64,000 nucleotides of DNA from Planomicrobium sp. YIM 101495 (GTDB lineage: Bacteria > Bacillota > Bacilli > Bacillales_A > Planococcaceae): the NCBI RefSeq assembly GCF_009707665.1, contig NZ_WLZW01000001.1, forward strand, positions 682,001 through 746,000, written 5' to 3'. Positions 7,059 through 23,779 of the stretch are shown here, piece by piece. The notes beneath the pieces are model-generated. The model saw only the letters and a program-made list of their open reading frames with translations. It was not told the origin of the DNA and searched no databases. The translations under genes and the position numbers were made by a program. Positions within the stretch are counted from its first letter, which is position 1. The number at the start of each line of letters is the position of its first letter.

Positions 7059-7167
7059 TTATTTCTTCTCTTTCACTTTTTTAGTTCCAGATGTAGATGC
7101 TTTATTCATTTGAGTCATCATTTGATTGATTTTCTTCTGCGACGGTTTTTGTCCCATTTGCATCATC
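7059..7167 (-). pseudogene. yneF: displaced original 3' end of yneF
   Basis: This stretch reads in frame as the last 35 codons of YneF ([12 protein letters not shown] ... NKASTSGTKKVKEKK, stop at 7059). Its first 76 bp are identical to the intact yneF at 23564-23639; the last 12 codons differ. It is the chromosomal 3' end pushed away from its gene by the 16.5 kb insertion, and has no start codon. Confidence 0.9.
7092..7167. repeat. attL, 76-bp perfect direct repeat
   Basis: Identical over 76 bp to 23564-23639, with divergence immediately outside on both sides. The repeat is a coding segment of yneF. Together with the integrase next to the partner copy, this defines the element ends. Confidence 0.95.
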
Positions 7168-7293
7168 CGTTGTTATATCAATGTTTGTAAGTAGTTTAAA
7201 TCCACTATTTCTGTTTAGAAAACTATACCATTAGGATTTTAATTTGTCTATATCCTTAACCAACTTCTAGGATTTATGCTTTAAGGTGTGTGA

Positions 7294-7887
7294 TTAATAA
7301 GGGGGTGTTTTCCCCGATTTAATGAATAGCAATCCTAATAAGCCATTTTGTGATAAGTCGTGCATGACTACAGATACAGCCATTCCCTTAATGGTATAAA
7401 CATTATTGATTTTAAACTGCTCTCTCGCTTCAGGAGTATCACGCACATCAACAAAGAAAGCAATTTCCATCATTTGCAGAGCAAAGGCATCATTTAAGCT
7501 ACGTTCCCATTGTTTCATAACTCCATGAATCAAATAAGGATCGGAATAAGCGTCTACATAGATTGGTCTTCCTAACTCATCAAATCTATCAATGACTCTT
7601 CCTAAGAAATCACGAACCTCTATAGAAACGTTGCAACTAGTCATAGTAGCACGATATTTATTATGGCGTGGCGTTTTGACTTCTTCATTAACAATATACA
7701 AATGTCCTCTATGCTCAACATAATCCCCTCTTCTAAATGGCTGCAAGGAACTGATATGACGATTCTCTACCATCCCTAAATAGGCAGTAGCAATAATGGC
7801 TTTCTGCGGTTCACCATTAATCAATACAGTTTCAGAAAGAGAATCAAATGTATCATTAATTAAAGTGTAATTCGTTAATAGATTCAT
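7294..7887 (-). CDS. putative head closure / head-tail connector protein
   Basis: 197 residues, last gene of the element's operon. The middle segment RRGDYVEHRGHLYIVNEEV followed by beta-rich sequence resembles the stopper (SPP1 gp16-like) proteins that seal the portal channel after packaging; the C-terminal half is longer than in gp16. It lies 12 bp after the adaptor-like gene, the usual connector order. Function is inferred from pattern and position. Confidence 0.5.
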   Translation of the reverse strand: MNLLTNYTLINDTFDSLSETVLINGEPQKAIIATAYLGMVENRHISSLQPFRRGDYVEHRGHLYIVNEEVKTPRHNKYRATMTSCNVSIEVRDFLGRVIDRFDELGRPIYVDAYSDPYLIHGVMKQWERSLNDAFALQMMEIAFFVDVRDTPEAREQFKINNVYTIKGMAVSVVMHDLSQNGLLGLLFIKSGKTPPY

Positions 7888-7899
7888 CGTTCTCCCCCC

Positions 7900-8232
7900 T
7901 TAATTAAATAGCATGAAGAAATCAGATTGATTATTGTCTGTTCTCATGCCACGAATTTTCTTCTCTAGTTGATCTATGCGGTCTGTTAGATTCTCATGGA
8001 ACTCTGAAACCGTCATATCATCCAATTTAACGTTACGCATCATTTCAGGGTTGTTAGCGACTGACTCCAATGTAGATAATGCAGTTTGGAAAATAGCTTT
8101 CTTAGCAGAAGGAGATTGAGCATTATATTCCTCATGCGGTTGCAATCCGTTTTCCTGTAGATAGATAATTAGTTCCTGCTGCGATAGAGCAATCCCCTTT
8201 GTTTCCATTTCTAAGCGTTGAATATTTTTCAT
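7900..8232 (-). CDS. putative head-tail adaptor protein
   Basis: 110 residues from the ATG at 8232, preceded by GAAAGGA. The sequence is helical throughout: an N-terminal helix LSQQELIIYLQENGL, then ALSTLESVANNP, then a C-terminal coiled segment with DRIDQLEKKIRG. This is how phage head-tail adaptor (gp15/gp6-like) proteins that dock under the portal look. It sits between a 102-residue unknown and the head closure gene. Confidence 0.45.
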   Translation of the reverse strand: MKNIQRLEMETKGIALSQQELIIYLQENGLQPHEEYNAQSPSAKKAIFQTALSTLESVANNPEMMRNVKLDDMTVSEFHENLTDRIDQLEKKIRGMRTDNNQSDFFMLFN

Positions 8233-8308
8233 TTTATCTTTCCTTTCTATAGTTGGTTGAAAACGAGCATAAGAAAAAGCCACATCATTAAGATGTGACT
8301 CAAATTCA

Positions 8309-8617
8309 TTAGTCTAATAGAGGTAATAGCTTTCTCAAGTCAGTAAGAGCTTCCCCAAGAATTTCATTGTATTCATCGTAATCAATGCTATTGTCGGACA
8401 AAGTACTATATTGTGATAAGAAATTATCTATTAGTATCCTTTGATCTTTATTCCCGTATTTAAAATAAGGCGATAAAGTCGCACTAAGAACATAATATCC
8501 CATTCCTACACTGTTAATAGTATCAGCATCAATTAAACCATCCAAACCGCCTCTATCTTCAATATTTAAAGCTTTCCTACATGTAGCTTCCATAAATAAA
8601 GCATTTTCACGAGCCAT
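8309..8617 (-). CDS. hypothetical protein, 102 residues
   Basis: Start taken at the ATG at 8617, which follows GGAGGTGAATTTA. Mostly helical and acidic, no recognised domain. Being in the connector gene cluster of the element it may be a structural or assembly protein, but nothing in the sequence proves it. Confidence 0.6.
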   Translation of the reverse strand: MARENALFMEATCRKALNIEDRGGLDGLIDADTINSVGMGYYVLSATLSPYFKYGNKDQRILIDNFLSQYSTLSDNSIDYDEYNEILGEALTDLRKLLPLLD

Positions 8618-8666
8618 TAAATTCACCTCCTCTCATTTTCAATTACAAAAATTTAAAGAGGTAAAA

Positions 8667-9518
8667 TTAATCTTGAAAGCTCGTTAAGATTCCATTATCA
8701 AAATACAAATATATCCCATTGTCATATACCCATTGCTCACTTACAGTTGATTGAGTCACAGTTCTATTAATCTTATTAGGTTTTCCTAGTGTAGATTCCA
8801 ATACTTGATCGGTGGTCATTCCGATTCTAGCTTTAAATTCTGATGCGTTTGCTTTTTTATAAGCATCTTCCCATACAAATAATCTGATTCCCTTATCATT
8901 TAAAAACTTAGTAATTTCTCTTGATCGGATACCTTTATATGGTGGTTTTACATTTGTATAAAGTTTTTGATATGCAGCAGGACTATCTTGATTCATTAGA
9001 AGGTTTACATATGCGTCTAATGCTAATACCTCTTGACTGTTAGAAAGATAACCACTTGTACTTATATATCCTAGTTTGGTAGTAGGCTTAAAGTTTTCAT
9101 CCATATTTTCTATATATTGATCCAGATTGCTAATTGCTTCTTGTTCATATTCGTATTTGGCATTTTCAATATAGTCTTTTGTTTCATCATACATATATTC
9201 TTGCGTAAAACTGCTTTGATCTCGCAAATATTCTTCTAAATCATCGTCTACAGAATTAACAATTGCTCTATTATATATGTCGGCTAATTCAGTATCGTTT
9301 TTATGAGCAATTTCACCACTTGCTACTTTGTCATTATAGTCTTTGAAAAGTGTTAATTCATGACCACGTTCTAAATACTCTTCGTATTCAACAAGTAACT
9401 CTTGAGTTATGTCAGAATTACCTACTGAATTTTCTTCTACTGTATTAGCTTCCTCATCACTACAGGCAGATAAGAAAGCTACAGATAATACAATAGTCAA
9501 AACACCCCTTTTAACCAT
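8667..9518 (-). CDS. lipoprotein with BamE/SmpA-like C-terminal domain
   Basis: 283 residues from the ATG at 9518 (GGGGGAAA upstream). Signal peptide with lipobox LSAC, so it should be lipid-anchored on the outer face of the membrane. The middle is a helical acidic region; the last 60 residues (IGMTTDQVLESTLGKPNKIN ... YLYFDNGILTSFQD) match the small BamE/SmpA-like fold found in many secreted Gram-positive proteins. It stands between the portal and connector genes but is not a virion-type protein. It may be a lysogenic conversion gene, for example for superinfection exclusion. Confidence 0.75.
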   Translation of the reverse strand: MVKRGVLTIVLSVAFLSACSDEEANTVEENSVGNSDITQELLVEYEEYLERGHELTLFKDYNDKVASGEIAHKNDTELADIYNRAIVNSVDDDLEEYLRDQSSFTQEYMYDETKDYIENAKYEYEQEAISNLDQYIENMDENFKPTTKLGYISTSGYLSNSQEVLALDAYVNLLMNQDSPAAYQKLYTNVKPPYKGIRSREITKFLNDKGIRLFVWEDAYKKANASEFKARIGMTTDQVLESTLGKPNKINRTVTQSTVSEQWVYDNGIYLYFDNGILTSFQD

Positions 9519-10275
9519 CAGATTTCCCCCCATTTATAATTGATAATTAAATTGTACCATTACTATATAACCACTCGATAGGGGGGAGCAGGGAATTTTC
9601 TAAATATTATGTGGGTGAAAAATCGTGAGTGGTGGGCGCACTGTTTTAGCTTTTGGGGCATCGTGTGAATAAGAAATGTATAAAAATATCTCTACTTCCG
9701 ATAACTTACCTTATGTCAACTTAAATGAACGTCTAAAACCTTGATATGACTCAGTTTGTATATATTGATGTATTATGCACTCTAAAGTCACATGAATAAC
9801 AGGATTTAAATATGCGATTATTTGTATATATTATGGTATTTCTATACATTTAGCAGTTTATAATATTTATTCTCTATTTCCACCGAATAAAGGTTATATA
9901 ATTCACATTATGACACCTTTTTATAATTTCGATCTCTCAATTGAAGTTTTTAGATACATGAAATTTTCTTCCAATATAATGGAAAAGAGTGCAAGGATCA
10001 TTTTCCCCTGCACCCCTTTTTTAAAATTTTTTTTGGAATCGGCTTCTCATATAACAGAGAAAAATTTCTGATATTACCACTAATCTCATCCTCCCCTATT
10101 TTCCCCATGTTTCCTCATAATCGGATGAACAGTAAACTTCATCTATCCTCACCATATTTTCATACCATTAACCAAACACTTCACTACACTAAAGTATCTG
10201 ATTCACTTCAAATATATTCTCAGGATATTTTCAGGATATTTTCATATTTTTTTCAGAGATGATCTAATTCTATTA
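9519..10275. other. 757-bp AT-rich gap between portal and lipoprotein genes
   Basis: No coding frame of reasonable length with a ribosome site is seen on either strand. It contains a terminator-like hairpin at 9989-10013 and, near 10210-10250, a direct repeat of TCAGGATATTTT. The lipoprotein promoter must lie in its left part. Confidence 0.5.
9989..10013. terminator. terminator-like hairpin after the portal gene
   Basis: Stem with arms GTGCA / TGCAC extended by AGG / CCC, followed by CCCCTTTTTT on the plus strand and TCTTTT on the minus strand. It probably ends the head-gene transcript. Confidence 0.45.
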
Positions 10276-11655
10276 TCAAATCTGAATGGGTTCTGCTTTC
10301 CCATCTACTTCAATAGCCTTTCCATCTTCCTCTAACTTCATTCTCTCAATCTCCTGCATTACATCAGTTGTGTAAGGCGAATGTTCAAGCAAGCTCTCCA
10401 TGCTGATAGCGTTCATAGCTCTAAGCTCTTTCAAGTCCTTCACTCTCTCGCTCTCATTAGATGGACGGTTATAAGTAAAGAGTAACGAAAGAGTAGCATA
10501 CTGTTCATCTGTGATCGTCACGCCTTTAAAGCTCAATAGCTTGCGTACCTTGTCATAACGCTCCATCATACCATCACGCAAATAGCTTTCATTCTCTGCT
10601 GCTTTCACTTCTGCCAAACTGAATAGCATCTTAATACTAACCTCTGATAGATTGCTCACATCACTCTTATTCATAGAGACAGCAGGAGTAGCAGATACAT
10701 CTAATAGGCTCTGATTCAATTGGTTATATAATGTTTCAAATGCGTTAATGTCCAGATCATTACTCTTAAAATCAAATGTTGAGCCATCATCTAGCACTAA
10801 TCCACCGCCGATAATCTCTTTAGGAATACCCCCTGTAGTTAGACGTTGCCCTGTGATAACTGGAATCCCCTGAAAATGAGTATAAGTAGCATCGACAGTT
10901 TTCGACAATAGCAATTCCATATTGTCTAAGATGCCAATGAAATCATCTAATACGCTTGATCCCTCAATGTCTGAGTATTCGTTATGAGTATGATAGTGAA
11001 TAGGTAGTCCACTCAGGTTAGCAAATTGATTTACAAGATTAACTTTCCCACCCTCATTAGTATATTCTTTAACTACATCCTCTTCATAAAGTGTGTAGTA
11101 AGAAATCCCATCAAATACAAATGACTGAACAAAAGCGATCATTTCATTTTGGTGATTGTAGATAGGCGTTCCTTCGTCAGAGGGAATAATTTTAGAATCA
11201 ATATATCCTTTCTTATTATAGTAGACATATTCAGCACATGAACCGAATTTGAGAAGATTGGAAAGGATTTTCAAGTTTTTAGCATTATACTTTCCTAGCT
11301 TATTTACCTTATTCAATTCATCAATCATCTTCTCATTGCCAGTAAGTACAATGTCATTTTTTAGAAGAAATTGCGTATGGAATTGCAATAACGTCTTTGC
11401 GGTCTGCAATACAATCTTTCTAGGCGTTACCAATTCACCGTTATACATAAATGAAGGTAAGTTCTGGACGTTATGATAACCCATTAGATAATCCTTTTTG
11501 GCTTCTACATTTAATAGTCGCTGCTGATTGGCAACGCTGTTCACTTCTTCAATAAACCAATGCTCATTATTTCTATGTTTGACTTTAATATATTCTTCTA
11601 AATTCATTTGAACACCCATCTTTCTATTTTGGTGTATGTCCAAAAAATTAGACAT
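10276..11655 (-). CDS. portal protein of the satellite-like element
   Basis: 459 residues, directly downstream of the terminase large subunit and overlapping it by 8 bp. Shows the portal pattern: an N-terminal wing region with PSFMYNGELVTPRKIV, a central beta segment with YYTLYEEDVVKEYT, the stretch DNMELLLSKTVDATYTHFQG and then helical stem and crown with VSATPAVSMNKSDVSNLSEV. It forms the dodecameric vertex through which DNA is packaged. The start at 11655 is supported by AGGA 7 nt upstream; a second ATG at 11607 is possible. Confidence 0.75.
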   Translation of the reverse strand: MSNFLDIHQNRKMGVQMNLEEYIKVKHRNNEHWFIEEVNSVANQQRLLNVEAKKDYLMGYHNVQNLPSFMYNGELVTPRKIVLQTAKTLLQFHTQFLLKNDIVLTGNEKMIDELNKVNKLGKYNAKNLKILSNLLKFGSCAEYVYYNKKGYIDSKIIPSDEGTPIYNHQNEMIAFVQSFVFDGISYYTLYEEDVVKEYTNEGGKVNLVNQFANLSGLPIHYHTHNEYSDIEGSSVLDDFIGILDNMELLLSKTVDATYTHFQGIPVITGQRLTTGGIPKEIIGGGLVLDDGSTFDFKSNDLDINAFETLYNQLNQSLLDVSATPAVSMNKSDVSNLSEVSIKMLFSLAEVKAAENESYLRDGMMERYDKVRKLLSFKGVTITDEQYATLSLLFTYNRPSNESERVKDLKELRAMNAISMESLLEHSPYTTDVMQEIERMKLEEDGKAIEVDGKAEPIQI

Positions 11656-13240
11656 ACCACTTTCCTTCTCCCATTGCTACATTGGCTAACATCATGCTAA
11701 TTACTAAATCGTCCTTATTTTTTTCCCCACGCTTGTTCCCTAACTTGCCATCTTTTTCGACAAAAATCGTCATTTGTTCCAGCAGTGTTTTACACTCTAT
11801 ATTTATCATGCCTGTTTCAAAGTTCTGTCTGAAATTAGAAATGGCTATCTTTTTAGAGCTTTCTGTAGTAAGGAATCCTAGCTTTAATTTCTTCCGTCCA
11901 CGTTCATCAAAAGACTTCATTTTATACAGGTTCATATATTCATGGACTTCTCTAAGTTGCTGCAATACGACTGATCCATAACTGTTTCTCTCTACACAAA
12001 GAAAACTGTAGTTATAATATCTGCCAATTGTATTGATGATTTCAGCAAATTCATGAGGACTAACTTTATTTGAGAAGAATGCTAAAACTTCCTGTCCATC
12101 GTCATTCAGCATACTTAGGGTTGAATCATCTCCCCCAACACCAGCAGCCACATCAATTCCTGAGTAGTAGCGTTTACCACGCTTAGGCAAATGATAAATT
12201 TCTAATCCACGACCAATAAAGCGATAAAGTGATTGAGGGATTTCCTCTTCAACTTCATCACGCTTCAACGGCTCTATAATATGCTCCATGCGCTCCAATA
12301 CCTTAGATTGCTTAAATAAGCCATTTCCTGACGCTACAAAAGCTTCATATAGATTGGATGGGTATTCCTGGTGGAACTCTTCTAACTCCATATCAAGTAG
12401 CTTAAAACGTCTCCACATGAGGGAACGAATAGCGCACCCTTTTTCATGGAGAATCTTTTCATCTTCTTCAAAATCCTTAGGTGACATTCTAGTACCGCTA
12501 TTGGTTGATTTAAACCATGCTTCGGCTTCGTCCATTTCTGTTTTCCATTGCTTCAAGTACAATCTATGATAGAAAGGAATAAAGTACATTTTGAAACGGC
12601 TCTTCCCTTTATCTGCGTTCATGCAAAGCTCATGAAAAGAGTTCATCCCTTTTGCTGTAGATTCTATAATCAATCTGCTGTGCTTTCCTTTGGCAAGTGA
12701 TTGAATAACTGATAGCAACTGCCTATCAATATCATTGTAAAAAGCAAGCTCTGACAATAGGCAGAAGTCTATTGTAATTCCTCGGCCAATATCCTTATCC
12801 CCTGCCGTTGTGGATGTGATACGTGAACCATTCTCAAAGAACAATTCTGATCTGTTCTCACGCTTTACTTTAGGGAAAGCATTAGGATATTTCTTTCTCG
12901 GCAAAGTAGAGTTCATATCTTTTAATTTGTCGAACAAAGATTTAGCGGAAGCACCTAAATAACTGACAATCAATATATTTTGATTAGGAACGGTACAAGC
13001 AAGGTGTAGAGCTTTCGCAAGCATGTAAGTTGTAATCCCTGCCTGACGACTTTTCGGCACAACTAAAAATTTGTTATATTTAAGCAAGTTCTCTATATCT
13101 AACTGAGCTTCATTTAAAGTAAACTTCTGACGCTCACCATCATTATTCTGTATCTCTACAAAGTTCTTAGCGAACAACTCAAAGTCATTCATTACGGTTT
13201 CTAGCTTGTTTGTCGGTTTCTTTTCTATAGCTACTACCAT
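11648..13240 (-). CDS. terminase large subunit of the satellite-like element
   Basis: 530-residue ATP-driven packaging motor. The N-terminal ATPase has a Walker A-like loop VPKSRQAGITT and an acidic strand FCLLSELAFY; the C-terminal RNase H-like nuclease begins with YSGIDVAAGVGGDDS and carries a second acidic site near KNKDDLVISMML. It lies immediately after the small-subunit candidate and overlaps the portal gene. Having its own terminase means the element can select its own DNA for packaging. Confidence 0.88.
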   Translation of the reverse strand: MVVAIEKKPTNKLETVMNDFELFAKNFVEIQNNDGERQKFTLNEAQLDIENLLKYNKFLVVPKSRQAGITTYMLAKALHLACTVPNQNILIVSYLGASAKSLFDKLKDMNSTLPRKKYPNAFPKVKRENRSELFFENGSRITSTTAGDKDIGRGITIDFCLLSELAFYNDIDRQLLSVIQSLAKGKHSRLIIESTAKGMNSFHELCMNADKGKSRFKMYFIPFYHRLYLKQWKTEMDEAEAWFKSTNSGTRMSPKDFEEDEKILHEKGCAIRSLMWRRFKLLDMELEEFHQEYPSNLYEAFVASGNGLFKQSKVLERMEHIIEPLKRDEVEEEIPQSLYRFIGRGLEIYHLPKRGKRYYSGIDVAAGVGGDDSTLSMLNDDGQEVLAFFSNKVSPHEFAEIINTIGRYYNYSFLCVERNSYGSVVLQQLREVHEYMNLYKMKSFDERGRKKLKLGFLTTESSKKIAISNFRQNFETGMINIECKTLLEQMTIFVEKDGKLGNKRGEKNKDDLVISMMLANVAMGEGKWYV

Positions 13241-13243: not shown

Positions 13244-13633
13244 TTACAACTCCAAATCATCAAATGAATTAGAATCAGATGGTTTAACATTGCTTGCTGC
13301 CTTATTGAAAGAGCGAATTTCTTTCTGAATCTGCAAGAGCAGTTTAATGCTCTTTTCATCTGCATCTTCCTCTTTTGCTCTTTCGGCTGTATTGGTATAG
13401 ACTACTTCCAAATCATTAGCAAACTTTGATTCTAAATACAGAGAAAGCAATTGCAAATACTGCGGTGTCCGTTCCCATTTGATGTATTCATTCATAGACT
13501 TCACCTGAAGCTTATCCATAATTTCCTCAGCCGTTTCTTTCTCTTTGGTCTGGTTATAGCTAATGTCATGCTTCCACGTAAAATACAACCGCTTTTTCCA
13601 TGACACTTCTTTTAGTGCTTCATAAATATTCAT
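13244..13633 (-). CDS. putative terminase small subunit
   Basis: 129 residues, ending 3 bp before the TerL start. All-helical, with a basic Trp-rich N terminus, a central oligomerisation-type region and an acidic tail (SDSNSFDDLEL). Size and position fit TerS, the DNA-recognition ring. No sequence motif proves this. Confidence 0.6.
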   Translation of the reverse strand: MNIYEALKEVSWKKRLYFTWKHDISYNQTKEKETAEEIMDKLQVKSMNEYIKWERTPQYLQLLSLYLESKFANDLEVVYTNTAERAKEEDADEKSIKLLLQIQKEIRSFNKAASNVKPSDSNSFDDLEL

Positions 13634-13672: not shown

Positions 13673-14848
13673 TCAAGCAGTATGCTCAATGGTCTGTCCA
13701 AATCCTTTTGGTTTTTCTTCTTCCTCTTCTAATAATTTTGCTTCAACATATCTGTCGTACATGGTTGCAAATCGCTTTTCTAAATTTGTAGTTTCTTCTT
13801 CAATAATAGAGAGTTGCGATTTACTCAAGTAAGCTCTCAACAGAATACAGACATTTAAAAGGTAAAATTCTTTAGAAAGATATTGGGAATTTTTATATTT
13901 TTCTTTCTTTTGCTTGTCTTGAGCCAATGAAATGAAATTGTTGCACCATGCTCTATTTACTTCTTGTTCATCAAGCTCTCTAACTACCTTCTTATTTACG
14001 ACATCTACAAACAGGCGTTCAAATTCATAGTCAATTTCTTGATCCTTTAAGTGCTGTTTCACGATTTTATTACATTCTCTTAATTCCTCAGAGTGAAAAT
14101 TATTGAAACGTCTGGCGTTCATATAGTCTTGATATGCTACTTCTTGTTCCTCAACTAAAATCTTAATGTCCGCTTTCAATTCCCTATATTCAATGACATC
14201 AACGACTTGTACATTGCCGTCAATTTTTCGGAAATAGTACAGAGGTGTAATTTCAATTCTGTTTTGCTTCTTTAAGTGGTTAAAAGCATTTCTAATAATA
14301 TCTACGTTTCTACTGTTAATGACTGAATTGATCTCCCTAATAGTCTTATTAATAACCTTTTCAGTATTCTCTCCTAAATTGAACGAATATAATTCCTTCA
14401 TTTCTTCAAATGCTGCTTTTAAAGAATTGTCGTCTAATTTTGGCAAACCGATTAAGGAAGTCCATCTAGTAATGCTAAGAGTATTAGTTTTGATTTTCAA
14501 CAACCGATTGAACACATATTCAATCATGATATTTCCCTCTGGAGTAGAAGCAAAAGAATTATAATTAAAAACCCTTTCTGTCTGAATCTCTTTTTTCCCC
14601 CAAAGGATATAATGTCTGCCTTTACCCTTGCCCTCTACTTGCACATTATGATAAAAAGTTTTTAATTTTGCTATTAAAGCTAAGATAGCTCTATCGCTAA
14701 ATTCGCCTGTAACTTTATCCTTAGTGCCATCAAGTGCGCCATTCTTTTTCCATTTGGCAGTATTAAACTCATTGCCTTCAAAACCGTACTCCATTGTAAG
14801 TAAAATTGCTTCATACTCTGTAAGTGTAATTTTCTCTATAAGTGTCAT
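13673..14848 (-). CDS. unknown phage-type protein, 391 residues
   Basis: Begins with LTLTEYEAILLTMEYGF, a start seen in uncharacterised proteins of Firmicutes phages and plasmids, followed by a likely winged-helix-like N-terminal region and a long helical C-terminal half rich in Glu/Lys. No catalytic motif. It lies 40 bp before TerS. A DNA-binding role in replication or packaging-site choice is conceivable but unproven. Confidence 0.6.
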   Translation of the reverse strand: MTLIEKITLTEYEAILLTMEYGFEGNEFNTAKWKKNGALDGTKDKVTGEFSDRAILALIAKLKTFYHNVQVEGKGKGRHYILWGKKEIQTERVFNYNSFASTPEGNIMIEYVFNRLLKIKTNTLSITRWTSLIGLPKLDDNSLKAAFEEMKELYSFNLGENTEKVINKTIREINSVINSRNVDIIRNAFNHLKKQNRIEITPLYYFRKIDGNVQVVDVIEYRELKADIKILVEEQEVAYQDYMNARRFNNFHSEELRECNKIVKQHLKDQEIDYEFERLFVDVVNKKVVRELDEQEVNRAWCNNFISLAQDKQKKEKYKNSQYLSKEFYLLNVCILLRAYLSKSQLSIIEEETTNLEKRFATMYDRYVEAKLLEEEEEKPKGFGQTIEHTA

Positions 14849-14867: not shown

Positions 14868-15044
14868 CTATAAGTTAATTTTGTTTTGCGTCCACTTCTC
14901 TAAAAGCAGGGACAACGACTCGTTTTGCGTAAACACCCAAAAAGTTTTTTTCGTTTCTGAATGAGCCATACAATGAACAGGAATTTGCCCATTTTCTAAT
15001 AGATACTTCATTTGTTTATAGCTAAAACAATTATAATTTTTCAT
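14868..15044 (-). CDS. small protein of 58 residues (paralogue A)
   Basis: ATG at 15044 with AAGGGAA 8 nt upstream. Sequence pattern NCFSYKQMKYLLENG ... TFWVFTQNESLSLLLEKW: an aromatic strand, a helix, and a second strand-helix unit. The same pattern recurs in the 59-residue gene at 15262-15441, so the two are paralogues. They resemble DUF5659-type small phage proteins. Function unknown. Confidence 0.6.
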   Translation of the reverse strand: MKNYNCFSYKQMKYLLENGQIPVHCMAHSETKKTFWVFTQNESLSLLLEKWTQNKINL

Positions 15045-15261: not shown

Positions 15262-15441
15262 TTATGCACCGTATTCATCTAGTGCCTGTTGAAGTTGTGA
15301 AGATTTCTGATACAGAGTAAAGGTTTCACCATTCTTAATAGACTTAGCTTTAAAGATATAGTGGAAACCTTGATCTCTAAGATAACAACTCATAGACTTC
15401 TTATAGCAAAAGAAAAAATCCTTATCACTCAGTTGCTTCAT
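15262..15441 (-). CDS. small protein of 59 residues (paralogue B)
   Basis: ATG at 15441 overlaps the stop of the upstream gene as ATGA, so translation is coupled. Pattern FFFCYKKSMSCYLRDQGF ... TFTLYQKSSQLQQALDEYG parallels paralogue A. DUF5659-like; function unknown. Confidence 0.65.
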   Translation of the reverse strand: MKQLSDKDFFFCYKKSMSCYLRDQGFHYIFKAKSIKNGETFTLYQKSSQLQQALDEYGA

Positions 15442-16298
15442 TGCGATTCTCCTTTCATGTGAGTTGAAACTTTAACTTTATCCTTATAGACGAAAGCATA
15501 ACTAAAAGACTCTTCAATTTTTGTTTTCGTCAGTTCATGCCATTCAAGCTTTTCATTCTCTAATTTCTGTATTTCAGTAAATTCGCCTTTAGGAAGCTCA
15601 ACCTTAAAGCCGACTGTTTTACTTAACCAATCTAAATCTACTTCCTGCTGATCCCATTTAATAGAACGACCAGTTTCAATAAATTTAAGCTTGTTGTTTT
15701 TCCTGTTAAGGACAATAGAAGCGTCTAAATTATTTACCTCCTTAAAGTAATACATATCTGCAATATGGGTTCTCTCTAAGACTTCTGCAAAATGGCTCAT
15801 TCCTAATAAATCTAAATGATCCATGAAAATATATCGGTATTCCTCAGGATAATAACCTTTAAATCCTGAATCCACCGAAAGCAGAAGCTTAATTAAATCA
15901 TCGGACAGTCCTTCCGTTTCCATGCCTAATAATGACCACAACATTATGAAGGTACTCATAGCAAATTTTTTATTATAAGTATCTCGGCTAATGTTCAGCA
16001 GGTTATTGATATTGGCCGAATCAGGGTTTTTATAACTGGCTGCGTCAAGCATGGTTAAATGATTGCAGTAGGTATAGCCTTTAACTAGAGCGAGATCAAC
16101 GCCTATAGATTTACGCTTATCCTGTAAATTCAATGCTGATACTTTACTGAATGAATAGAAATAATTAATCTCATAGCCAAAAACGTGTTTCAATAAAGCA
16201 CAGGATAATAATGAATCAAGATCATTTGTTAAAGTTAAATTTCTGTCTTGCTTTAGGGTTGCCCATTCAGGTATCAATTCTAGTAATTCTTGTTTCAT
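15438..16298 (-). CDS. unknown protein with DHH-like Asp motifs
   Basis: 286 residues. The N-terminal LTNDLDSLLSCALLKHVFG followed by a GVDLAL strand and NHLTMLDAAS recalls the Asp/His-rich motifs of DHH-type phosphoesterases, as found in uncharacterised phage proteins of this length, but the full DHH triad is not evident. The second half has no known domain. It is coupled to paralogue B by an ATGA overlap. Low certainty on function; the gene itself is sound. Confidence 0.6.
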   Translation of the reverse strand: MKQELLELIPEWATLKQDRNLTLTNDLDSLLSCALLKHVFGYEINYFYSFSKVSALNLQDKRKSIGVDLALVKGYTYCNHLTMLDAASYKNPDSANINNLLNISRDTYNKKFAMSTFIMLWSLLGMETEGLSDDLIKLLLSVDSGFKGYYPEEYRYIFMDHLDLLGMSHFAEVLERTHIADMYYFKEVNNLDASIVLNRKNNKLKFIETGRSIKWDQQEVDLDWLSKTVGFKVELPKGEFTEIQKLENEKLEWHELTKTKIEESFSYAFVYKDKVKVSTHMKGESQ

Positions 16299-16467: not shown

Positions 16468-16638
16468 TTAATAGTTCTCAATGAACTGCTTATAAAGAAT
16501 TTGCTTATTGATGTCTAAATTAGCTTTGTCATTCTCAAAGAGTGAGAGCATTGCAATAGAACAGTCAATAAACTCCGCAATTTCTCTAAGCTTAATTTGC
16601 TTTTTTCTTCTAAGTAAAAATAGCTTTTCTTTTTCCAT
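16468..16638 (-). CDS. minimal XRE/Cro-type HTH regulator, 56 residues
   Basis: ATG at 16638 with GAGGG upstream. The sequence KKQIKLREIAEFIDCS-IAMLSLFENDKANL is a classic XRE helix-turn-helix (scaffold helix, turn, recognition helix, then the E-N-D-K loop) with nothing else attached. It sits inside the head operon, between the capsid gene and the DHH-like gene. Probably a Cro-like or delayed-acting repressor of the element. Confidence 0.75.
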   Translation of the reverse strand: MEKEKLFLLRRKKQIKLREIAEFIDCSIAMLSLFENDKANLDINKQILYKQFIENY

Positions 16639-16723: not shown

Positions 16724-17575
16724 TTATGCTTCTGTTACTTCAAAAGATGCTGCTGCTTTTTCGTTCAATAGGGAAATACCTAGTTGAGTCTCAAGGAATA
16801 CAGATTGTTTAGAACCTGATACTGGCTCAACTTGACCATGCAAAGGAATTAGGACAGGCATTTCAATATATTCAGGGTTAGCGATGAACATTTTGCCTTT
16901 ACCTAATTCCTCTGTAAGGCAGAATGTGACCTGCCCATAGACCGTAGAGTAAACATCTGCGTCAAAGCCCATGAATTTCTCACGTGCAAGGTGAACAACG
17001 TTAGCAGAATCAACAAGATTTTTCTTCATAGATGCAGGAAGGAAAGCAATCATGTTGTCAGAAACGCCAGCATCATATAGTTTTTCTACAACTGATTCAA
17101 AAGCAGCGTCATCAAAGAAACCGCCTTTTAGTTGATGATCTGCGTCAATCTGCTCAAGAATACCAGAAGTGTGATAAGTACCTGTAGAAGCGTCATAAGA
17201 GCCTTTTCCGTGGATTAGCTTATTTTCTACACGCCGTTTAATAGCCTTAGTTTTAGAATCTACTTCTTTAGCAAGCAAATCACTAATACCATGATGGCTA
17301 GAGTATTGAGCAGTGTTAGAAACTGTTGCAGTATTTGCGAATAGCTCTAAATAAATCTGCTTTAGTTCCTGACCGTCTTTAGTATATTCAGGAGCATCTC
17401 CGCCCTCCTGTAGCGTTACGGCACTGTCTGCAATTTCTGTTTGAATCCAGTTATAAACGGGAGCAGTTGCTTTTACCTGTTTTGAAAGCAAGAAAGTTGT
17501 AAATGGGTTCTGTTTTTTATTTACCTCTACTAGCACGTCACGCAAATCAATTACTTTATCTTCTACTTTAAACAT
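16724..17575 (-). CDS. major capsid protein, SU10/DUF5309-like
   Basis: 283 residues. Features of the SU10-type HK97-fold capsid family: an N-terminal arm, NWIQTEIADSAVTLQEGGDAP, then AN-TATVSNTAQYSSHHGI, KAIKRRVENKLIHGKG and a C-terminal P-domain/A-domain region with VYSTVYGQVTFCLTEEL. There is no protease domain. The scaffold-like gene lies directly upstream. Forms the shell of the element's own capsid. Confidence 0.75.
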   Translation of the reverse strand: MFKVEDKVIDLRDVLVEVNKKQNPFTTFLLSKQVKATAPVYNWIQTEIADSAVTLQEGGDAPEYTKDGQELKQIYLELFANTATVSNTAQYSSHHGISDLLAKEVDSKTKAIKRRVENKLIHGKGSYDASTGTYHTSGILEQIDADHQLKGGFFDDAAFESVVEKLYDAGVSDNMIAFLPASMKKNLVDSANVVHLAREKFMGFDADVYSTVYGQVTFCLTEELGKGKMFIANPEYIEMPVLIPLHGQVEPVSGSKQSVFLETQLGISLLNEKAAASFEVTEA

Positions 17576-17625: not shown

Positions 17626-18018
17626 TCAGCGGTTACCGAAAAGTGCTTTAATCATTGATTTCGAATCTCCATTTTGTTTAGCTACTGTATATGAATCTTG
17701 CTTAGTGTTATCGGTTGGTTGATAGGAAAGAGAAACTTTCAGATCGTTGACAATTGCAGAGAGCTTTTTGATAGTCTCTTTTAGCTCTTTTTCATCGGCT
17801 ATTGATACAACTTCCGCAAACTGCACAAGTCCATTTTCTTTAAGCTCTGCTTTTACCTCACGCTGAAACAATTCTTTTTCACGCTGTTCTAATTGCTTAT
17901 GAGCTTCTTCCAGTGGATCAACTTCTGCTGGTTCTGTATCAACAGTTTCAGTAACACCCTCATTTTCTACTGCATCTGTTTCTGTAGTTTCAATTACTGG
18001 CTCTGTTGCATTTTCCAT
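17626..18018 (-). CDS. scaffold-like protein
   Basis: 130 residues: acidic Thr/Glu-rich N terminus, then a coiled coil (EEAHKQLEQREKELFQREV), a helix EKELKETIKKLSAIV and a short basic tail MIKALFGNR. This layout and the position just before the capsid gene are those of phage scaffolds (DUF4355-like). It would guide shell assembly and leave before maturation. Confidence 0.65.
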   Translation of the reverse strand: MENATEPVIETTETDAVENEGVTETVDTEPAEVDPLEEAHKQLEQREKELFQREVKAELKENGLVQFAEVVSIADEKELKETIKKLSAIVNDLKVSLSYQPTDNTKQDSYTVAKQNGDSKSMIKALFGNR

Positions 18019-18035: not shown

Positions 18036-18236
18036 TTAATTAAATTTGACTTGAATTAGTTGTCTCGCAACTACTGGCTTACCATAAATACCGCTAAACT
18101 CAAAAATAAAATCTGAGTCAGCCGTGTAATTGTAGTCATAATAAAAAGACCCTTGAGATAAATCCTAACCCGTTCGGTTCACTGGTACAAAAACCCGAAT
18201 AACATCTGAAATCGCAAAGATTTTAGCAACAAATAA
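18036..18236 (-). pseudogene. possible coding remnant with an internal amber codon
   Basis: An open frame ends at TAA 18036 after 42 codons that look protein-like (DLSQGSFYYDYNYTADSDF ... QLIQVKFN), but upstream it meets an in-frame TAG at 18165-18167 and no start codon. The frame continues above the TAG for 23 codons to a TGA. It may be the tail of a lost structural gene; chance is not excluded. Confidence 0.3.
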
Positions 18237-18453
18237 TCACAACTTTATAACAACAAATAGTACCTCAATTCGTACAGGTTTAATCAACCTAATTAATGCG
18301 AATCGGCGGTGCTATTTTTCTCGTTCATTTTTCTCGCCTTTTTAAAATTTTTCATTAAGTAAGCTTCTTTTATTGAAAATTAAGGTAAAATGAGATCAAG
18401 GAGGAACTTAAATGGTAATATACCGTTTAAGATTTAAGAAAGGGGGATGTACT
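18237..18453. other. intergenic region before the plus-strand gene
   Basis: AT-rich, no gene. It must hold the promoter of the plus-strand membrane protein gene, whose ribosome site AAGGGGG is at about 18439. Confidence 0.4.
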
Positions 18454-19017
18454 ATGAAGCAGAAATCTAAATTATTCATTTCAATAATAGCGTTGAGCAT
18501 CGGATTAATATCGGTATTTACCGTATGGTCTATTTCAGAAATAAAAATTTCTTATGATGAACCTCAGGAAGCATTATTGGCTGAGAATGAGGATGCAATC
18601 TTAATTCCCGCTTATGTAACGGAGGACAAAGCCTTATTCTACTTCATCACAGATTCAAACAACATTGGCGCAGCAAAGATTAACAAAGGACTATTTGGCT
18701 GGAAATCGGATTACCAAGTATGGAACGAGCCTATTGGAACTATATCTGACGAAAAGTTTAACGGATACCAAAAATATGGGGATGAAATAATATTTGGCTT
18801 GATGGAAAACGGCGAGGAACTTACAGTAATGGCCGATGATATACCTGCCAACAAAATCAACTTGAAAGGTTCTTTGTATGATGAGTCGATTGAGATGGAA
18901 CTAGAAAATGTATACCTATGGTACTTTGAGTCAGACAATTTATCTCAAATAAATGAATTGAGTTTGATTAATCAGAATACAAATGAAGAATTAGACACTC
19001 ACCTATATGAAAATTAA
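18454..19017 (+). CDS. membrane-anchored hypothetical protein (moron)
   Basis: 187 residues from the ATG at 18454, preceded by AAGGGGG at the right distance; the in-frame ATG at 18412 is less likely. One N-terminal membrane segment (LFISIIALSIGLISVFTVW) and an acidic, mostly beta extracellular domain. It is the only gene on the plus strand of the element and has its own terminator, the hallmark of a moron expressed from the integrated state. Function unknown. Confidence 0.75.
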   Translation: MKQKSKLFISIIALSIGLISVFTVWSISEIKISYDEPQEALLAENEDAILIPAYVTEDKALFYFITDSNNIGAAKINKGLFGWKSDYQVWNEPIGTISDEKFNGYQKYGDEIIFGLMENGEELTVMADDIPANKINLKGSLYDESIEMELENVYLWYFESDNLSQINELSLINQNTNEELDTHLYEN

Positions 19018-19135: not shown

Positions 19136-19513
19136 TTAACGTTTGTAAATAATGTCTTCCCACGTATACACCTTGTCAGCGATGCCGAGTCGTTGAGCTG
19201 GTGTTTTCTTCTCACCATTCGAATTGAACGGCATACAGAAGTTATAGTAAGTTCTCAAAATCGTGATGGCCATTTGTGAGTACCTCGGATTGAAGTTCGA
19301 ATAAATATAACTCTTACCATCTCCACGTGCCGTTACAAGAGGTCTTTCTAAAATCGACAATCTACGCCTTACCGTTTGAAAGAACCCGTTTATCGCATTG
19401 TCATTCACTTGTACTAACAGGTCAGCCAGTTGCTTATCAGATAAACTCCACGTGTCTGTTAAAACATCCAAATGACGATGGCCACGATCACTTGTAGGAA
19501 TTGGGTGTTTCAA
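19136..19513 (-). pseudogene. C-terminal fragment of a transposase
   Basis: About 125 codons with the pattern INGFFQTVRRRLSILERP, then SYIYSNFNPRYSQMAI, TYYNFC and TPAQRLGIADKVYTWEDIIY. The last segment is the typical C-terminal end of DDE-type transposases of several IS families. There is no proper start codon; a stop lies 6 nt upstream of the first TTG, and no terminal inverted repeats are visible. Remnant of a decayed insertion sequence. Confidence 0.55.
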
Positions 19514-19558
19514 TGATTAATGGATTAGATTTAGTTCCAATTCCTAACATTTAATCAC

Positions 19559-19906
19559 CTACAATACTTGCGGAATTTGAAGCTTATGAATAATTGTCAG
19601 TTCATCATCAGCCGACTCAAATGTAAAGCTAGTGAAGTTTTCAGTAGTAATTGCGTTAGCTCCAGTAGGTGAATCAAACACAACTGATTTCCCGACTGTT
19701 TGATTAGTGAATAAAGCGTCTGAGCCTTTGATAATGAGCTTGTATTCAATTGTTGGGGTGTTTGCACTTCCAGCGATTTCAAGGCCGTCAGCAATACCAA
19801 AACGCTTTAAAACTGTACCATCCGGCTTCCGCAACTCTAGGTATTTCCAATTTGCAATTACAAACTCTCGAATCTTTTGATAACCGTATTGATTGATTTC
19901 AGCCAC
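19559..19906 (-). CDS. putative structural protein, 115 residues
   Basis: Beta-rich protein starting with an YQKIREFVIANWKYLELR segment and carrying IEYKLIIKGSDALF and FTFESADDELTIIHKL. Such small proteins occur with phage-type head genes and may be a decoration or fibre-like component. Good ribosome site (AAAGGTGG upstream). Function not provable here. Confidence 0.55.
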   Translation of the reverse strand: MAEINQYGYQKIREFVIANWKYLELRKPDGTVLKRFGIADGLEIAGSANTPTIEYKLIIKGSDALFTNQTVGKSVVFDSPTGANAITTENFTSFTFESADDELTIIHKLQIPQVL

Positions 19907-19992: not shown

Positions 19993-20046
19993 AAAAAATA
20001 AACTACAAAAAATTTGCATTACAGAATGAACTATAATGACTAAAGT

Positions 20047-20169: not shown

Positions 20170-20201
20170 TTATACTCAAAAAGTGTTACGTTTTAGATTG
20201 C

Positions 20202-21191
20202 TTAAATCGCTTCCAATTGTTCTTTAGTTACCTTAGACTTTTCTTTCAAGCGTCTAAGTCTATTTTTGAAAGCAGATTCTTTCATATTCATCTGCATAGC
20301 AAAATATCTTTTATTAAATCCGATCAGATGACCCTTTTCATTAAATGTAAATGGTGCAATATTGATAGCGTCAATTTCCTTCTGTATCACATTCTTTAAC
20401 ATGCTATAGAAAACGGCTTGATTGCTAGTAAGATTGTCTTCATTCACCTGCAAAATATATTTGGCACTAGTTTTAATAAATTGTTGCTTGCGGATTTCTT
20501 CTTTCGTCACATAATACTTTTCGCCATTGATGTTATGGACTTTCGTTCCCAGCAACTTAGTAAGTTTACGGTCAACTTTCCTTTTCGTACTTATAGCAAT
20601 AAAGCCTATAATTTCATCTTCTGATCTAGTTAGATCAACGCTCGACAGTACCTGATTCAATGACTCTAATATTAGAGGTGTATACTGATTAAGCAATTTG
20701 CTCTTTTCTCTATTAATTGCAGGGAGAATATTTCTAAACTCCATAAATTCATCATATACGTTCCCATAACCTATCTTATCCCATACTTTAGATGGTACTT
20801 TGTCAAAATCGTCTTTGTAGTAATGAAAGCCATGTTCTGCAAAAGTGCTATAAATCGTATGCAGAGCATCATCATCATATATTGACTGCTGGCTTCCTTC
20901 AAAAAGATACTTTCTTCGCATGCCATTAGCTTTTTTAGTGTACCTAGCTAACCAAATTCTAATATTGTATGCTAGTCGGTATTCAGCAGTATTTTTCTTA
21001 ACAGTATACTTCGGTCGCCAACGATTAAATGTTAAAGTGTAATGTCCATCTTCCTCATTATAAAACTCTTGCTCGACTTGCTTGCAGATCATTGTAGTCT
21101 TAACCATTTCTGATTGAGCCAACTTCATTAATTCAGCAGCAAAATCATGTTCCCCTTGTTGATGCGCTTTAATCTTCTCTTTAAAATCCAT
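20202..21191 (-). CDS. unknown protein with a possible C-terminal HTH
   Basis: 329 residues from the ATG at 21191 (GAGGA upstream; a second ATG 6 nt earlier is possible). Mostly helical and basic. The last 35 residues (RYFAMQMNMKESAFKNRLRRLKE) look like a DNA-binding helix-turn-helix of sigma-factor region 4 type. Being the first large gene after the integrase, it could be the element's replication initiator or a transcription activator of the head genes. No recognised family. Confidence 0.55.
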   Translation of the reverse strand: MDFKEKIKAHQQGEHDFAAELMKLAQSEMVKTTMICKQVEQEFYNEEDGHYTLTFNRWRPKYTVKKNTAEYRLAYNIRIWLARYTKKANGMRRKYLFEGSQQSIYDDDALHTIYSTFAEHGFHYYKDDFDKVPSKVWDKIGYGNVYDEFMEFRNILPAINREKSKLLNQYTPLILESLNQVLSSVDLTRSEDEIIGFIAISTKRKVDRKLTKLLGTKVHNINGEKYYVTKEEIRKQQFIKTSAKYILQVNEDNLTSNQAVFYSMLKNVIQKEIDAINIAPFTFNEKGHLIGFNKRYFAMQMNMKESAFKNRLRRLKEKSKVTKEQLEAI

Positions 21192-21295
21192 TTTCATTCC
21201 TCTTCTCTTTTGTGTATATCCTCCAAAATAGAGGACTACCAAAAAGAACATATTATTATTATTCTACCCACCAACTTCAAATTCATCAACGTGAT

Positions 21296-21472
21296 TTAGA
21301 AATATTTATCTTTATTTTCTTCTTCTTTCTCTTCTCTATCTCCAATGTCAGCATAAACCTCTTGTATTTTTCTTGCAATCCGTTCAATTGTTTCATCTGA
21401 TAGCGCTTCTCTACCTACTCTTTCTAGTTGCTCTAAGTATTGTGGATTCTTAATAATTTTTGATTTCGACAT
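21296..21472 (-). CDS. small helical protein, 58 residues
   Basis: ATG at 21472 with GGAG 8 nt upstream. Helical, acidic C terminus (EEKEEENKDKYF). No domain. By position it may be a small regulator of the element. Confidence 0.6.
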   Translation of the reverse strand: MSKSKIIKNPQYLEQLERVGREALSDETIERIARKIQEVYADIGDREEKEEENKDKYF

Positions 21473-21576
21473 ATTCACTTCTCCTTCTTTTAAGTAAGTT
21501 ATAATAATACATAGTGTTTAAATACATATTTTACCAATTAACTTACGTCTATCTTACTCTATTTCTTTAGGTGTGT

Positions 21577-21753
21577 CTATTCAACTACTGAATCCTGTAT
21601 CTCACGTTCTAAATACCTCACATAAGCAGCAAGATTCTCTATGTTCTCTTCATTCTCCCCCTGCACCATTAACCCCCATAATTTCTCTTTAGCTTCCTTG
21701 ATCTCACTTTCTAGCTTTTCTCTAGCGTTATATTCCTGCTCTAAGTTCCTCAT
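21577..21753 (-). CDS. small coiled-coil protein, 58 residues
   Basis: ATG at 21753 with AGGGAG upstream. A single coiled coil (EYNAREKLESEIKEAKEKL, then AAYVRYLEREIQD). Nothing like an excisionase HTH is seen. Function unknown. Confidence 0.6.
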   Translation of the reverse strand: MRNLEQEYNAREKLESEIKEAKEKLWGLMVQGENEENIENLAAYVRYLEREIQDSVVE

Positions 21754-21883
21754 GGTTATCTCCCTCCCTCTAGTTATCTTCATCCCTAAAATTCTTTTGT
21801 TTTCTTGCTCTATTTCACTTGACCTTTAACGCTTTTTGACAGCAGAGTTGGAGAAAAATAGGAAATTCGTAAAATTGTTGCCT

Positions 21884-22368: not shown

Positions 22369-22382
22369 GTGCAGAAAACTAA

Positions 22383-23300
22383 TTAATCTTTTGTTGAAAA
22401 TCTCCCCATGAGAGGACTGGAATTAATAGCTTTAGTAATCAATTGCTGATCGCTCATACTGTGCAAATACCGCTGCGTAACACTAATATCAGAATGTCCT
22501 AAGAGTCTCGACAAACTGTAAACATCCATATTAGTATTGTCTAACCATTGGACAGCATAGAAATGCCTGAATGTGTGCGGAGAAACCCTTTTCCCTTCCA
22601 CCCCTGCCCTCTTACCTGCTTGCTTTACAACGCTGTCTAACGCCACATGAGATAGCCCACGCCCCTGATAAGAAAGAAAGTATTCGTCTGTAGTTTGTCT
22701 ATCTTTGAAATTTTGTTTTCTCAGACGTTCATACTTGATAAGGATTCTTTTCAATGCAGGGCTGATGAAAATGATCCGTTCTTTATTCCCCTTACCATTT
22801 ACAAGTATTTTAGTTTCACTAAAACTCGCTGTCTTCAATGTCCTCAATTCCATTGCTCTGATTCCTGTATCCGCTAGAAGCGCTATAATGGCTTTATTTC
22901 TCGCTTCTAAATACGTCTTATAAGAAAATGAATTAATCATGGCGTGAACCTCTTCCAGAGTGAACCCATTTAACACTTTCTCAGGCACTTTAGGAAGCTC
23001 CACTTTTTTAGCAATATTCTCAGAAAGATACTCTTCCTTTTCACACCAATTAAAAAATGATGCAATCATCTTAAACATGGAAACAATGCTTTGTGGCTGC
23101 AATCCTGCTATTTGCTTTTGTCTTACATAGGCTTTTAGATCATAGACCGTTACAGATTGAAGCTTAGTGATCCCCCTGCTTTCTGCTAGATAGGACTTCA
23201 ACTGTTTTAACTCTTGCCTTTTGTTAATCATCGTTTTTGCAGTGAATCCCTTTGCCTGACAGAAATAATAATACTCATTGATTACATCTTCTAACTCCAC
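22383..23300 (-). CDS. int: tyrosine integrase
   Basis: 305 residues from a GTG at 23300 that follows AAGGGTGG at 8 nt; the in-frame GTG at 23312 overlaps the ribosome site and is unlikely. N-terminal SAM-like arm domain, then the catalytic domain with Arg in ADTGIRAMELR, HTFRHFYA (His-x-x-Arg), LLGHSDIS and the nucleophile Tyr in VTQRYLH. XerC/D-like in length. It lies 260 bp from attR and should catalyse recombination at the yneF site. Confidence 0.93.
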   Translation of the reverse strand: MELEDVINEYYYFCQAKGFTAKTMINKRQELKQLKSYLAESRGITKLQSVTVYDLKAYVRQKQIAGLQPQSIVSMFKMIASFFNWCEKEEYLSENIAKKVELPKVPEKVLNGFTLEEVHAMINSFSYKTYLEARNKAIIALLADTGIRAMELRTLKTASFSETKILVNGKGNKERIIFISPALKRILIKYERLRKQNFKDRQTTDEYFLSYQGRGLSHVALDSVVKQAGKRAGVEGKRVSPHTFRHFYAVQWLDNTNMDVYSLSRLLGHSDISVTQRYLHSMSDQQLITKAINSSPLMGRFSTKD

Positions 23301-23302
23301 GA

Positions 23303-23348
23303 AAAAAACCACCCTTCTGCTTAAGTTTCAACAGAAAAGTGGTTTTTT
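23303..23348 (-). promoter_or_regulatory. hairpin covering the integrase ribosome site
   Basis: Minus-strand RNA folds as AAAAAACCAC-tt-TTCTG / CAGAA-gg-GTGGTTTTTT. The right arm contains the AAGGGTGG ribosome site and ends in a seven-T run just before the GTG start. It can act both as an intrinsic terminator for transcripts coming from yneF and as a lid on integrase translation. Confidence 0.6.
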
Positions 23349-23521
23349 GAACTAAATACGAAAAATTAATCAACAAGCTAAATGAGTTGCAAAGGAAAAT
23401 TCACCTCATAGCAATGAAAAAAAGAATCAATCAATAAATAACTTCATTTGATTCATCGACAAACCCTTTTAAAAATCGCTTAGAGAATCAGAAGAAGCTT
23501 GATGTATAAGGGTTTATCCCC
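23349..23521. other. integrase-attR interval
   Basis: 173 bp without a gene. It holds an 8-bp inverted repeat AAACCCTT (23463-23470) / AAGGGTTT (23507-23514) and probably the integrase arm sites. Confidence 0.4.
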
Positions 23522-23779
23522 TTACTTTTTCTCGCCTCTGACTTTTGCTTTCTTCTCAGGTTTTGTAGATGCTTTATTCATTTGAGTCATCATTTGATTG
23601 ATTTTCTTCTGCGACGGTTTTTGTCCCATTTGCATCATCATGATACGCAGCATGTCTTCGTTAATCGGTGGGTTTTCTTCCAAATACTTCATCATGTATC
23701 GGCGGGAAATGAAAAAGCCGAGCGCAACACCCCCGAGTAAAGCGACAACAACGATCAAAATCCAAATCCATGTATCCAA
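23522..23779 (-). CDS. yneF: YneF family protein (UPF0154), C terminus supplied by the element
   Basis: 85 residues: one N-terminal membrane segment ([20 protein letters not shown]), then the conserved cytoplasmic part [19 protein letters not shown] and [14 protein letters not shown]. The 76-bp att repeat lies within the coding end, so the final residues ([13 protein letters not shown]) are encoded by the element, replacing the original SGTKKVKEKK still found at 7059. The protein stays full length and lysine-rich at its end. Function unknown. Confidence 0.92.
23564..23639. repeat. attR, 76-bp perfect direct repeat
   Basis: Identical to 7092-7167; on the integrase-proximal side of the element and inside the yneF coding region. 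Confidence 0.95.

Follow-up and report, generated by a model that had tools for sequence, protein, structure and literature searches.

A probable capsid-forming phage satellite at yneF of Planomicrobium sp. YIM 101495 and its tail-less relatives in Bacillus-like bacteria

The element described here lies in a stretch of 64,000 nucleotides of Planomicrobium sp. YIM 101495 (contig NZ_WLZW01000001.1, positions 682,001 to 746,000), referred to as the window, in which it occupies positions 7092-23639. It is flanked by a direct repeat of 76 nt, the two copies of which (7092-7167 and 23564-23639) are 100% identical and spaced 16,472 nt apart, in agreement with the perfect attachment (att) sites reported in a preliminary description of this DNA. 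The repeat is far beyond chance, because the other 19 of the 20 listed repeat families (at least 60 exist) measure only 21-38 nt with 71-84% identity. The GC content of the element is 0.350 versus 0.472 in the remaining window. The insertion point is the 3′ end of yneF. The occupied yneF ends in codons supplied by the element and has thus a new C-terminus; the presumed original C-terminus is obtained when the 5′ part of yneF is joined to the sequence beyond the distal att copy. An integrase of its own and att sites, as expected for a capsid-forming satellite, are therefore present. The features are given below in the order from the integrase to the stopper (window coordinates, strand, description). 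Family matches are from a scan with Pfam and PHROGs, which took in 20 of the 21 listed open reading frames (ORFs), i.e., all except g58.

23564..23639, −, att site, integrase-proximal copy, inside yneF
22383..23312, −, tyrosine integrase, 309 amino acids (aa); PF00589, 9e-26
21577..21783, −, small ORF, 68 aa; no match above the curated cut-off
21296..21478, −, small ORF, 60 aa; similar ORF in relative G007
20202..21251, −, rep349, 349 aa, putative replication or regulation gene by position; cluster of 5 sequences, no Pfam match above the cut-off
19559..19906, −, g115, accessory gene; in 13 of 18 elements
19491..19550, −, c15 remnant, first 20 residues; coordinates derived from frame and offset
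19136..19513, −, ORF of 125 aa of uncertain origin after the c15 remnant; no family match
18412..19017, +, ORF of 201 aa, putative cargo, the only large gene on the opposite strand; no convincing family match
18039..18164, −, c10 remnant, last ~42 residues; coordinates derived from frame and offset
17626..18018, −, putative scaffold, 130 aa; by position before the capsid gene, size and conservation (18 of 18)
16724..17575, −, major capsid protein of the SU10 type, 283 aa; SU10_MCP 9e-52, phrog_1328 7e-24
16468..16638, −, XRE-like helix-turn-helix (HTH) protein, 56 aa; weak HTH matches, in 18 of 18
15438..16298, −, g286, family hallmark; weak DHH/RecJ resemblance of the predicted fold
15262..15441, −, g59, small protein; relatives gp174 and gp9 in Geobacillus virus E3
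14868..15044, −, g58, paralogue of g59 (hhalign 1.7e-12); E3 gp9 6e-16
13673..14848, −, g391, probable replication initiation or regulation gene; fills an exchangeable slot ahead of terS
13244..13633, −, putative terminase small subunit (TerS), 129 aa; by position, sub-threshold HTH_Tnp_1_2 8e-5, in 18 of 18
11648..13240, −, terminase large subunit (TerL), 530 aa; Terminase_6C 3e-7, phrog_2 2e-30
10276..11655, −, portal of the SPP1 gp6 type, 459 aa; PF05133 (SPP1_portal) 1e-56
8667..9533, −, lipoprotein-like cargo in a variable slot between portal and adaptor; phrog_11546 5e-12, lipobox by eye
8309..8626, −, ORF of 105 aa, unassigned
7900..8283, −, g127, putative head-tail adaptor between portal and stopper; in 18 of 18, sub-threshold DUF6706 0.0069
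7294..7887, −, g197, predicted stopper (head-closure protein) by modelled fold
7092..7167, −, att site, integrase-distal copy, 76 bp; presumed original yneF 3′ end beyond it

The genes for integrase, TerS, TerL, portal, scaffold, capsid, adaptor and head closure, as listed in the preliminary description, were all located in 7092-23639, with TerS, scaffold and adaptor assigned by position. Capsid, portal, both terminase subunits and the connectors are hence encoded by the element itself. The accompanying statement that tail and lysis genes are missing held as well, since none of the scanned ORFs was recognisable as a gene for a tail protein, tape measure, holin or endolysin.

Searches with the capsid protein gave no match among 50,697 phage records at E 1e-5; the capsid of a prophage resident in the same window matched 327 phage records at E 1e-10. 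The capsid of one relative matched 2 of 72,556 plasmid records with 24-26% identity. TerL matched 1836 phage records, with identities that stay under 60% throughout and do not exceed 27% in the 20 matches listed, and the portal matched 17 (24-26% identity). Closer relatives were numerous in IMG/VR and in genome scans. Eighty of 90 TerL loci were kept, 25 of which are 42-100% identical to the window TerL (including a record nearly identical to the window and second loci of single records) and 55 of which show 28-31% identity; the latter are metagenome contigs, some of them long, and lie outside the mapping. Genes were mapped in 23 sequences, 18 of which span the region from integrase to stopper (the window element and 17 relatives). 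The profiles were built partly from the mapped sequences, so that the mapping is not independent; the pairwise matches are. The five incomplete sequences (G251, G256c8, G459, G464 and L035, with G251 and G459 looking like the same element) were dropped from the 18-element counts.

All 18 elements hold integrase, scaffold, capsid, HTH protein, g286, TerS, TerL, portal, g127 and g197 in one order, and g59 is present in 17. Their largest ORF measures 474-546 aa, which is too small for the usual tape measure. A tail module is thus absent from the scanned ORFs of the window element and, judged by ORF size and gene map, from all 18. Close relatives with the same genes plus a tail and lysis module, which according to the preliminary description would make the element a shortened prophage, were looked for among these 18, and none was found. 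The span from integrase to stopper is 13.7-17.3 kb, with the exception of G461 (22.5 kb), in which four extra ORFs of ~400-500 aa appear by eye to be insertions. Flanking repeats were detected in 8 of the 10 elements searched (46-82 bp, six perfect and two at 98%); the remaining two are G350, for which the integrase start was set too early, and L033, which has little flanking sequence. The att-bounded sizes are 16472 (window), 16288, 16109, 17171, 16439, 15801, 15371 and 16205 bp (n=8), and the sites are yneF or, judging from the repeats, tRNA ends. The nearest named relative, from Sporosarcina aquimarina, is inserted in the same gene yneF, measures 16,288 bp and is bounded by a perfect repeat of 82 bp, which fits the earlier view of a Planococcaceae member.

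One incomplete sequence, the metagenome record G464 (L137, IMGVR_UViG_3300023301_000215; 16,386 bp), is permuted: it starts with g127-g197, continues with the integrase and has the portal as its last gene. The record opens and closes with the same 127 bp, and a single att-like tRNA end was seen by eye between stopper and integrase. G464 is therefore probably a closed circle of 16,259 bp, representing an excised, replicating or packaged form; it may also be a tandem array collapsed by assembly. None of its mapped ORFs is larger than its TerL; the unassigned ORFs are covered by the mapping and not by the Pfam scan. Among 398 genomes of the class of the host, g286 was found in 9 (the window's own included) at 10 places, each of which also has a capsid match. 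Capsid matches were obtained in 19 of the 398 genomes, 9 of them with g286; G355 is one of the sequences with g286. The family was not found described in the literature searched, which left out most subscription papers, and the cf-PICIs (capsid-forming phage-inducible chromosomal islands) of Bacillaceae mentioned in PMC10803314 could overlap with it.

The window copy is worn in that two accessory genes are truncated. In 12 of the 18 elements, c15, encoding a protein of 128-439 aa, and c10 are located between g115 and the scaffold gene. In the window copy, c15 is cut to 20 residues and c10 retains the last ~42, and between the two remnants lie the 125-aa ORF and the 201-aa gene on the opposite strand. 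The former was first taken by eye for a piece of a transposase, an assignment that was dropped as it had no family match. The nearly identical record (L006) displays the same truncations, and the mapped core of the window copy is intact.

The structure of g197 was modelled with AlphaFold2 (AF2) from 13 family sequences with a mean predicted local distance difference test score (pLDDT) of 81.9. Compared with predicted viral structures (Foldseek), the model gave 23 matches at E 0.001, the named ones being largely head closure knobs (best 7e-7) and the rest uncharacterised. No match was obtained in the PDB at E 0.001. PilZ-domain proteins ranked highest there (E 0.009-0.04), followed by neck stoppers and connectors (of SPP1, a gene transfer agent (GTA), Chi, T1, lambda, SaPI1 and others; E 0.06-0.23, probabilities mostly >0.9). 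On the basis of this model we read g197 as the stopper, which would provide the face for tail attachment. The stopper alignment A3 matched proteins of Perkons (host Psychrobacillus; 2e-19), SPBc2 (YomX; 1e-16), E3 (1e-11) and phi6255 (2e-10) and, more weakly, of vB_BcoS-136 (2e-5), Sundance (4e-5), EZ-2018a (5e-4) and FADO (1e-3); none was matched in SPO1, LP-110, KKP_3916 and PMBT69. The resulting 8 of 12 phage records do not represent a rate, because most records were picked for a related gene that had matched. The Lactococcus phage PMBT69 matches the E3 stopper, but not the satellite stopper alignment. In Perkons and SPBc2, the stopper-matching gene is the fourth after the capsid gene (for SPBc2 taken as YonB from 52% identity to the Perkons capsid), and in Perkons it lies ahead of the tape measure gene. 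In one branch of the family (L122, L123, L124, L010/L011 and L201), the stopper comprises 378-481 aa, and the three members scanned (L122, L123 and L201) contain a Big_2 Ig-like domain.

The slot before terS is occupied by c23 in 6 of the 18 elements and elsewhere by c21, g391 or unrelated genes, some of them primase- or DnaD-like. Relatives of c23 are present in E3, Sundance, FADO, vB_BcoS-136, KKP_3916 and others; c21 and g391 gave no phage match at E 0.01 and no detectable homology to c23 or to each other. In the 141-kb phage Geobacillus virus E3 (L139, 27591-28807), gp174 and gp173 are adjacent in the satellite order g59-c23. In a tree for which the FADO sequence was trimmed to 135 aa, E3 gp173 groups with c23 of G350 (80% identity, support 0.94) inside the satellite c23 proteins. 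Genes thus seem to have moved between E3-like phages and the satellites, in a direction that we infer. The profiles of capsid, portal, scaffold, TerS, g286, g127 and g115 did not match E3, Sundance, vB_BcoS-136, FADO, Perkons or SPBc2. An SPbeta-type capsid was not matched in the 398 genomes of the class in a search that had no positive control. The helper may be a large siphophage of the SPbeta/E3/Sundance kind, an assignment suggested by these shared genes that we regard as almost, but not quite, an even matter.

Selection was estimated against a sister element of the same genus (L040/L041) as the ratio of nonsynonymous to synonymous substitution rates (dN/dS), which is rough here, dS being near saturation: TerL 0.04, TerS 0.07, portal 0.08, g127 0.02, g197 0.19, g115 0.15, rep349 0.08, g59 0.12, g286 0.23 and capsid 0.45. 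Judged by these values, purifying selection acts on the packaging and neck genes. The capsid is 25% identical to that of the sister and the portal 86%; the capsid module has thus been exchanged. The adaptor of L041 shares 97% identity across 110 of 127 residues and the stopper 63%, as would be expected if the tail-facing part tracked different helpers, so that the specificity of tail piracy could be examined in this family.

In the available descriptions, cf-PICIs are integrated islands with a mean length of ~14 kb that encode capsid, portal and connectors as well as the two terminase subunits and need a helper only for tails (PMC10803314, PMC10690885), and their helpers are temperate (PMC10803314). 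They are further characterised by a head-maturation protease, an HNH endonuclease, AlpA and Pri-Rep (PMC10690885, PMC10448857). The preliminary description considered such satellites best known from other hosts, which is correct only in part: according to PMC10803314, cf-PICIs were already reported from Bacillaceae, besides Enterococci, Streptococci and others. The window element resembles them in having its own capsid, terminase and connectors and no tail, but differs in its SU10-type capsid, in the capsid genes being located before terS-terL-portal, in the hallmark gene g286 and in its likely helpers, presumably large siphophages. The Pfam and PHROGs scan yielded no match to a head maturation (prohead) protease, to an HNH endonuclease with the terminase, or to AlpA and Pri-Rep. 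Because these were not found, we do not file the element as a cf-PICI, even though it seems to work like one; the distinction is drawn from cf-PICI descriptions. It is only an idea that g286, whose predicted structure gave weak PDB matches (best E 0.007, RecJ-Cdc45), is a nuclease that takes the place of the HNH protein of cf-PICIs.

Other satellites were compared by their descriptions in PMC10690885, as far as these go, and the window element by its genes. MulchRoom, a Streptomyces satellite, has genes for capsid formation and packaging and a putative lysogeny module, and its small capsid sits on a long tail of a length consistent with that of the helper. The window element likewise has head and packaging genes and a putative lysogeny module. 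MulchRoom differs from the window family, whose members are integrated in yneF or at tRNA ends of other hosts, by its direct terminal repeats, by a low GC content like that of its virulent helper and by the lack of a recognised primase. MiniFlayer (Streptomyces) is also a capsid-encoding satellite, but without apparent integration and with short tail fibres of its own that appear to attach to the helper. PICIs of the SaPI type are small integrated satellites in Gram-positive bacteria, too; these redirect the capsid assembly or packaging of the helper, whereas the window element encodes its own capsid.

Taken together, the element is very probably a capsid-forming, i.e., head-encoding, phage satellite that needs the tail of a helper, as the preliminary description had proposed; the tail-less core in all 18 elements, eight att-bounded copies of near-constant size and one circular relative support this. 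The tyrosine integrase would insert the element at the 3′ end of yneF, and the element would excise and replicate by its own initiator-like gene. The head would be built from its own scaffold and capsid proteins, one element length (~16.3 kb) would be packaged by its own TerS, TerL and portal, and the head would be closed by its own adaptor and stopper. As tail genes are missing, infectious particles would require a helper tail attached at the stopper, and for the window copy lysis would be supplied by the helper phage as well. Somewhat short of an even chance, and thus only tentatively, we extend this to a separate, uncatalogued family hosted by Bacillus-like bacteria. Its head genes would have no relation to those of cf-PICIs and its capsid would be unlike that of any phage on record; its closed heads may dock via a related stopper on tails of large siphophages of the SPbeta/E3/Sundance type, and it may swap replication or regulatory genes with those phages.

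Several points weigh against the satellite reading. Its support comes from sequence and predicted structure. The identities of TerS, scaffold and adaptor are largely positional, and the window copy is without most of c15 and c10. A holin-like cluster, c14, is present in 14 of the 18 elements (the single member scanned matches Holin_BhlA at 2e-6), and the Sporosarcina aquimarina element holds a Phage_holin_4_1 protein. Because relatives carry such holin-like genes, the dependence on a helper for lysis may be partial. A tblastn search with the stopper of one relative gave Perkons as its sole match among 50,697 phage records, and satellite and phage stoppers are separate in the tree with ~20-28% identity, i.e., their relation appears to be old. 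As g391 of the window has no phage match, the stopper is the one link of the window copy to a helper. The near-saturated dS limits the selection estimates, which include no value for s60, scaffold, HTH protein, g58 and g391, and with 25% identity and a dN/dS of 0.45 the capsid comparison with the sister is uninformative.

Positions 32524-64000 of the window contain a siphophage-like prophage on the minus strand, ~9 kb from the satellite element, which seems to run off the window. Its capsid is 68-70% identical to those of Listeria phages such as A500, its portal is of the SPP1 type, and it includes a tape-measure-sized ORF of 1616 aa and, at its end, ORFs that by eye are holin- and endolysin-like. 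A PF10145 tape-measure search of the own genome gave nothing and is uninformative, as this prophage with its 1616-aa ORF is present. Both portals, of the element and of the prophage, belong to PF05133. The 23 satellite profiles, stopper and adaptor included, did not match the ORFs of the prophage at E 1, and BLASTP of the element against it gave one match of 27 residues. That this resident prophage is the helper of the satellite is rather unlikely in view of these searches and of the detectable stopper relatives in other phages, even though both lie on the same chromosome ~9 kb apart, the prophage has a siphophage-like gene set, the portal also matches SPP1_portal, and temperate helpers are described for cf-PICIs (PMC10803314).

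The remaining alternatives concern the nature of the element itself. A homologous member of the canonical cf-PICI family described by Alqurainy et al. would share the logic of own capsid, terminase and connectors without a tail, and cf-PICIs are reported from Bacillaceae (PMC10803314); with no protease, HNH, AlpA or Pri-Rep gene among the scanned ORFs and with capsid genes preceding the terminase genes, this is distinctly improbable. That the element is an autonomous virus without a tail, which would adhere by means of a g115-c15-c10 module on its head, is very improbable. The position of g115, c15 and c10 ahead of the scaffold gene in 13, 12 and 12 of the 18 elements and the resemblance of c15 to a Sundance protein annotated as laminin-G-like would be in accordance with it, but c15 is missing or broken in 6 of the 18 (window copy included), a head-closing stopper for a tail is kept in all 18, and no endolysin was recognised among the scanned proteins, which comprise only part of those of the relatives. 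A defective prophage that has lost its tail and lysis genes is barely credible: all 18 elements have this gene set without a tail, the att-bounded copies are nearly equal in size and lie at different sites, the circular relative is without a recognisable tail gene (its unassigned ORFs being mapped only), purifying selection acts on the packaging and neck genes, and the satellite profiles found no counterpart in the resident prophage at E 1 despite the common portal family. The two truncated accessory genes of the window copy and the broken terL of some relatives (G460, G465 and L033) would fit such decay.

If the capsid-forming satellite reading is true, the head-only satellites, which illustrate that the parts of one virus particle can be divided over two genomes, would gain from this family a Gram-positive branch whose head is different, together with a concrete docking protein and named candidate helper phages. 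The family appears to be widespread and little described in Bacillus-like bacteria, and the tails it uses are most likely those of other phages. Such islands may well be labelled as incomplete prophages by annotation pipelines, because the capsid has no match in the 50,697 phage records at E 1e-5.

A search with PADLOC on 10 ORFs revealed no convincing defence gene. Genome G256 contains, at ~129-168 kb of its contig 8 (L200/L119/L201), a 39-kb island between two apparent halves of comGA. In this island the head genes of the family are accompanied by a large serine recombinase and by FtsK/SpoIIIE-like and Replic_Relax proteins; among 9 of its proteins scanned besides the stopper, none was recognised as a tail protein. 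The same genome harbours a second, ordinary element of 16.4 kb (L124). In the 68-kb record G459 (L127-L130), the satellite is located directly beside an apparent ordinary prophage (~5-53 kb).

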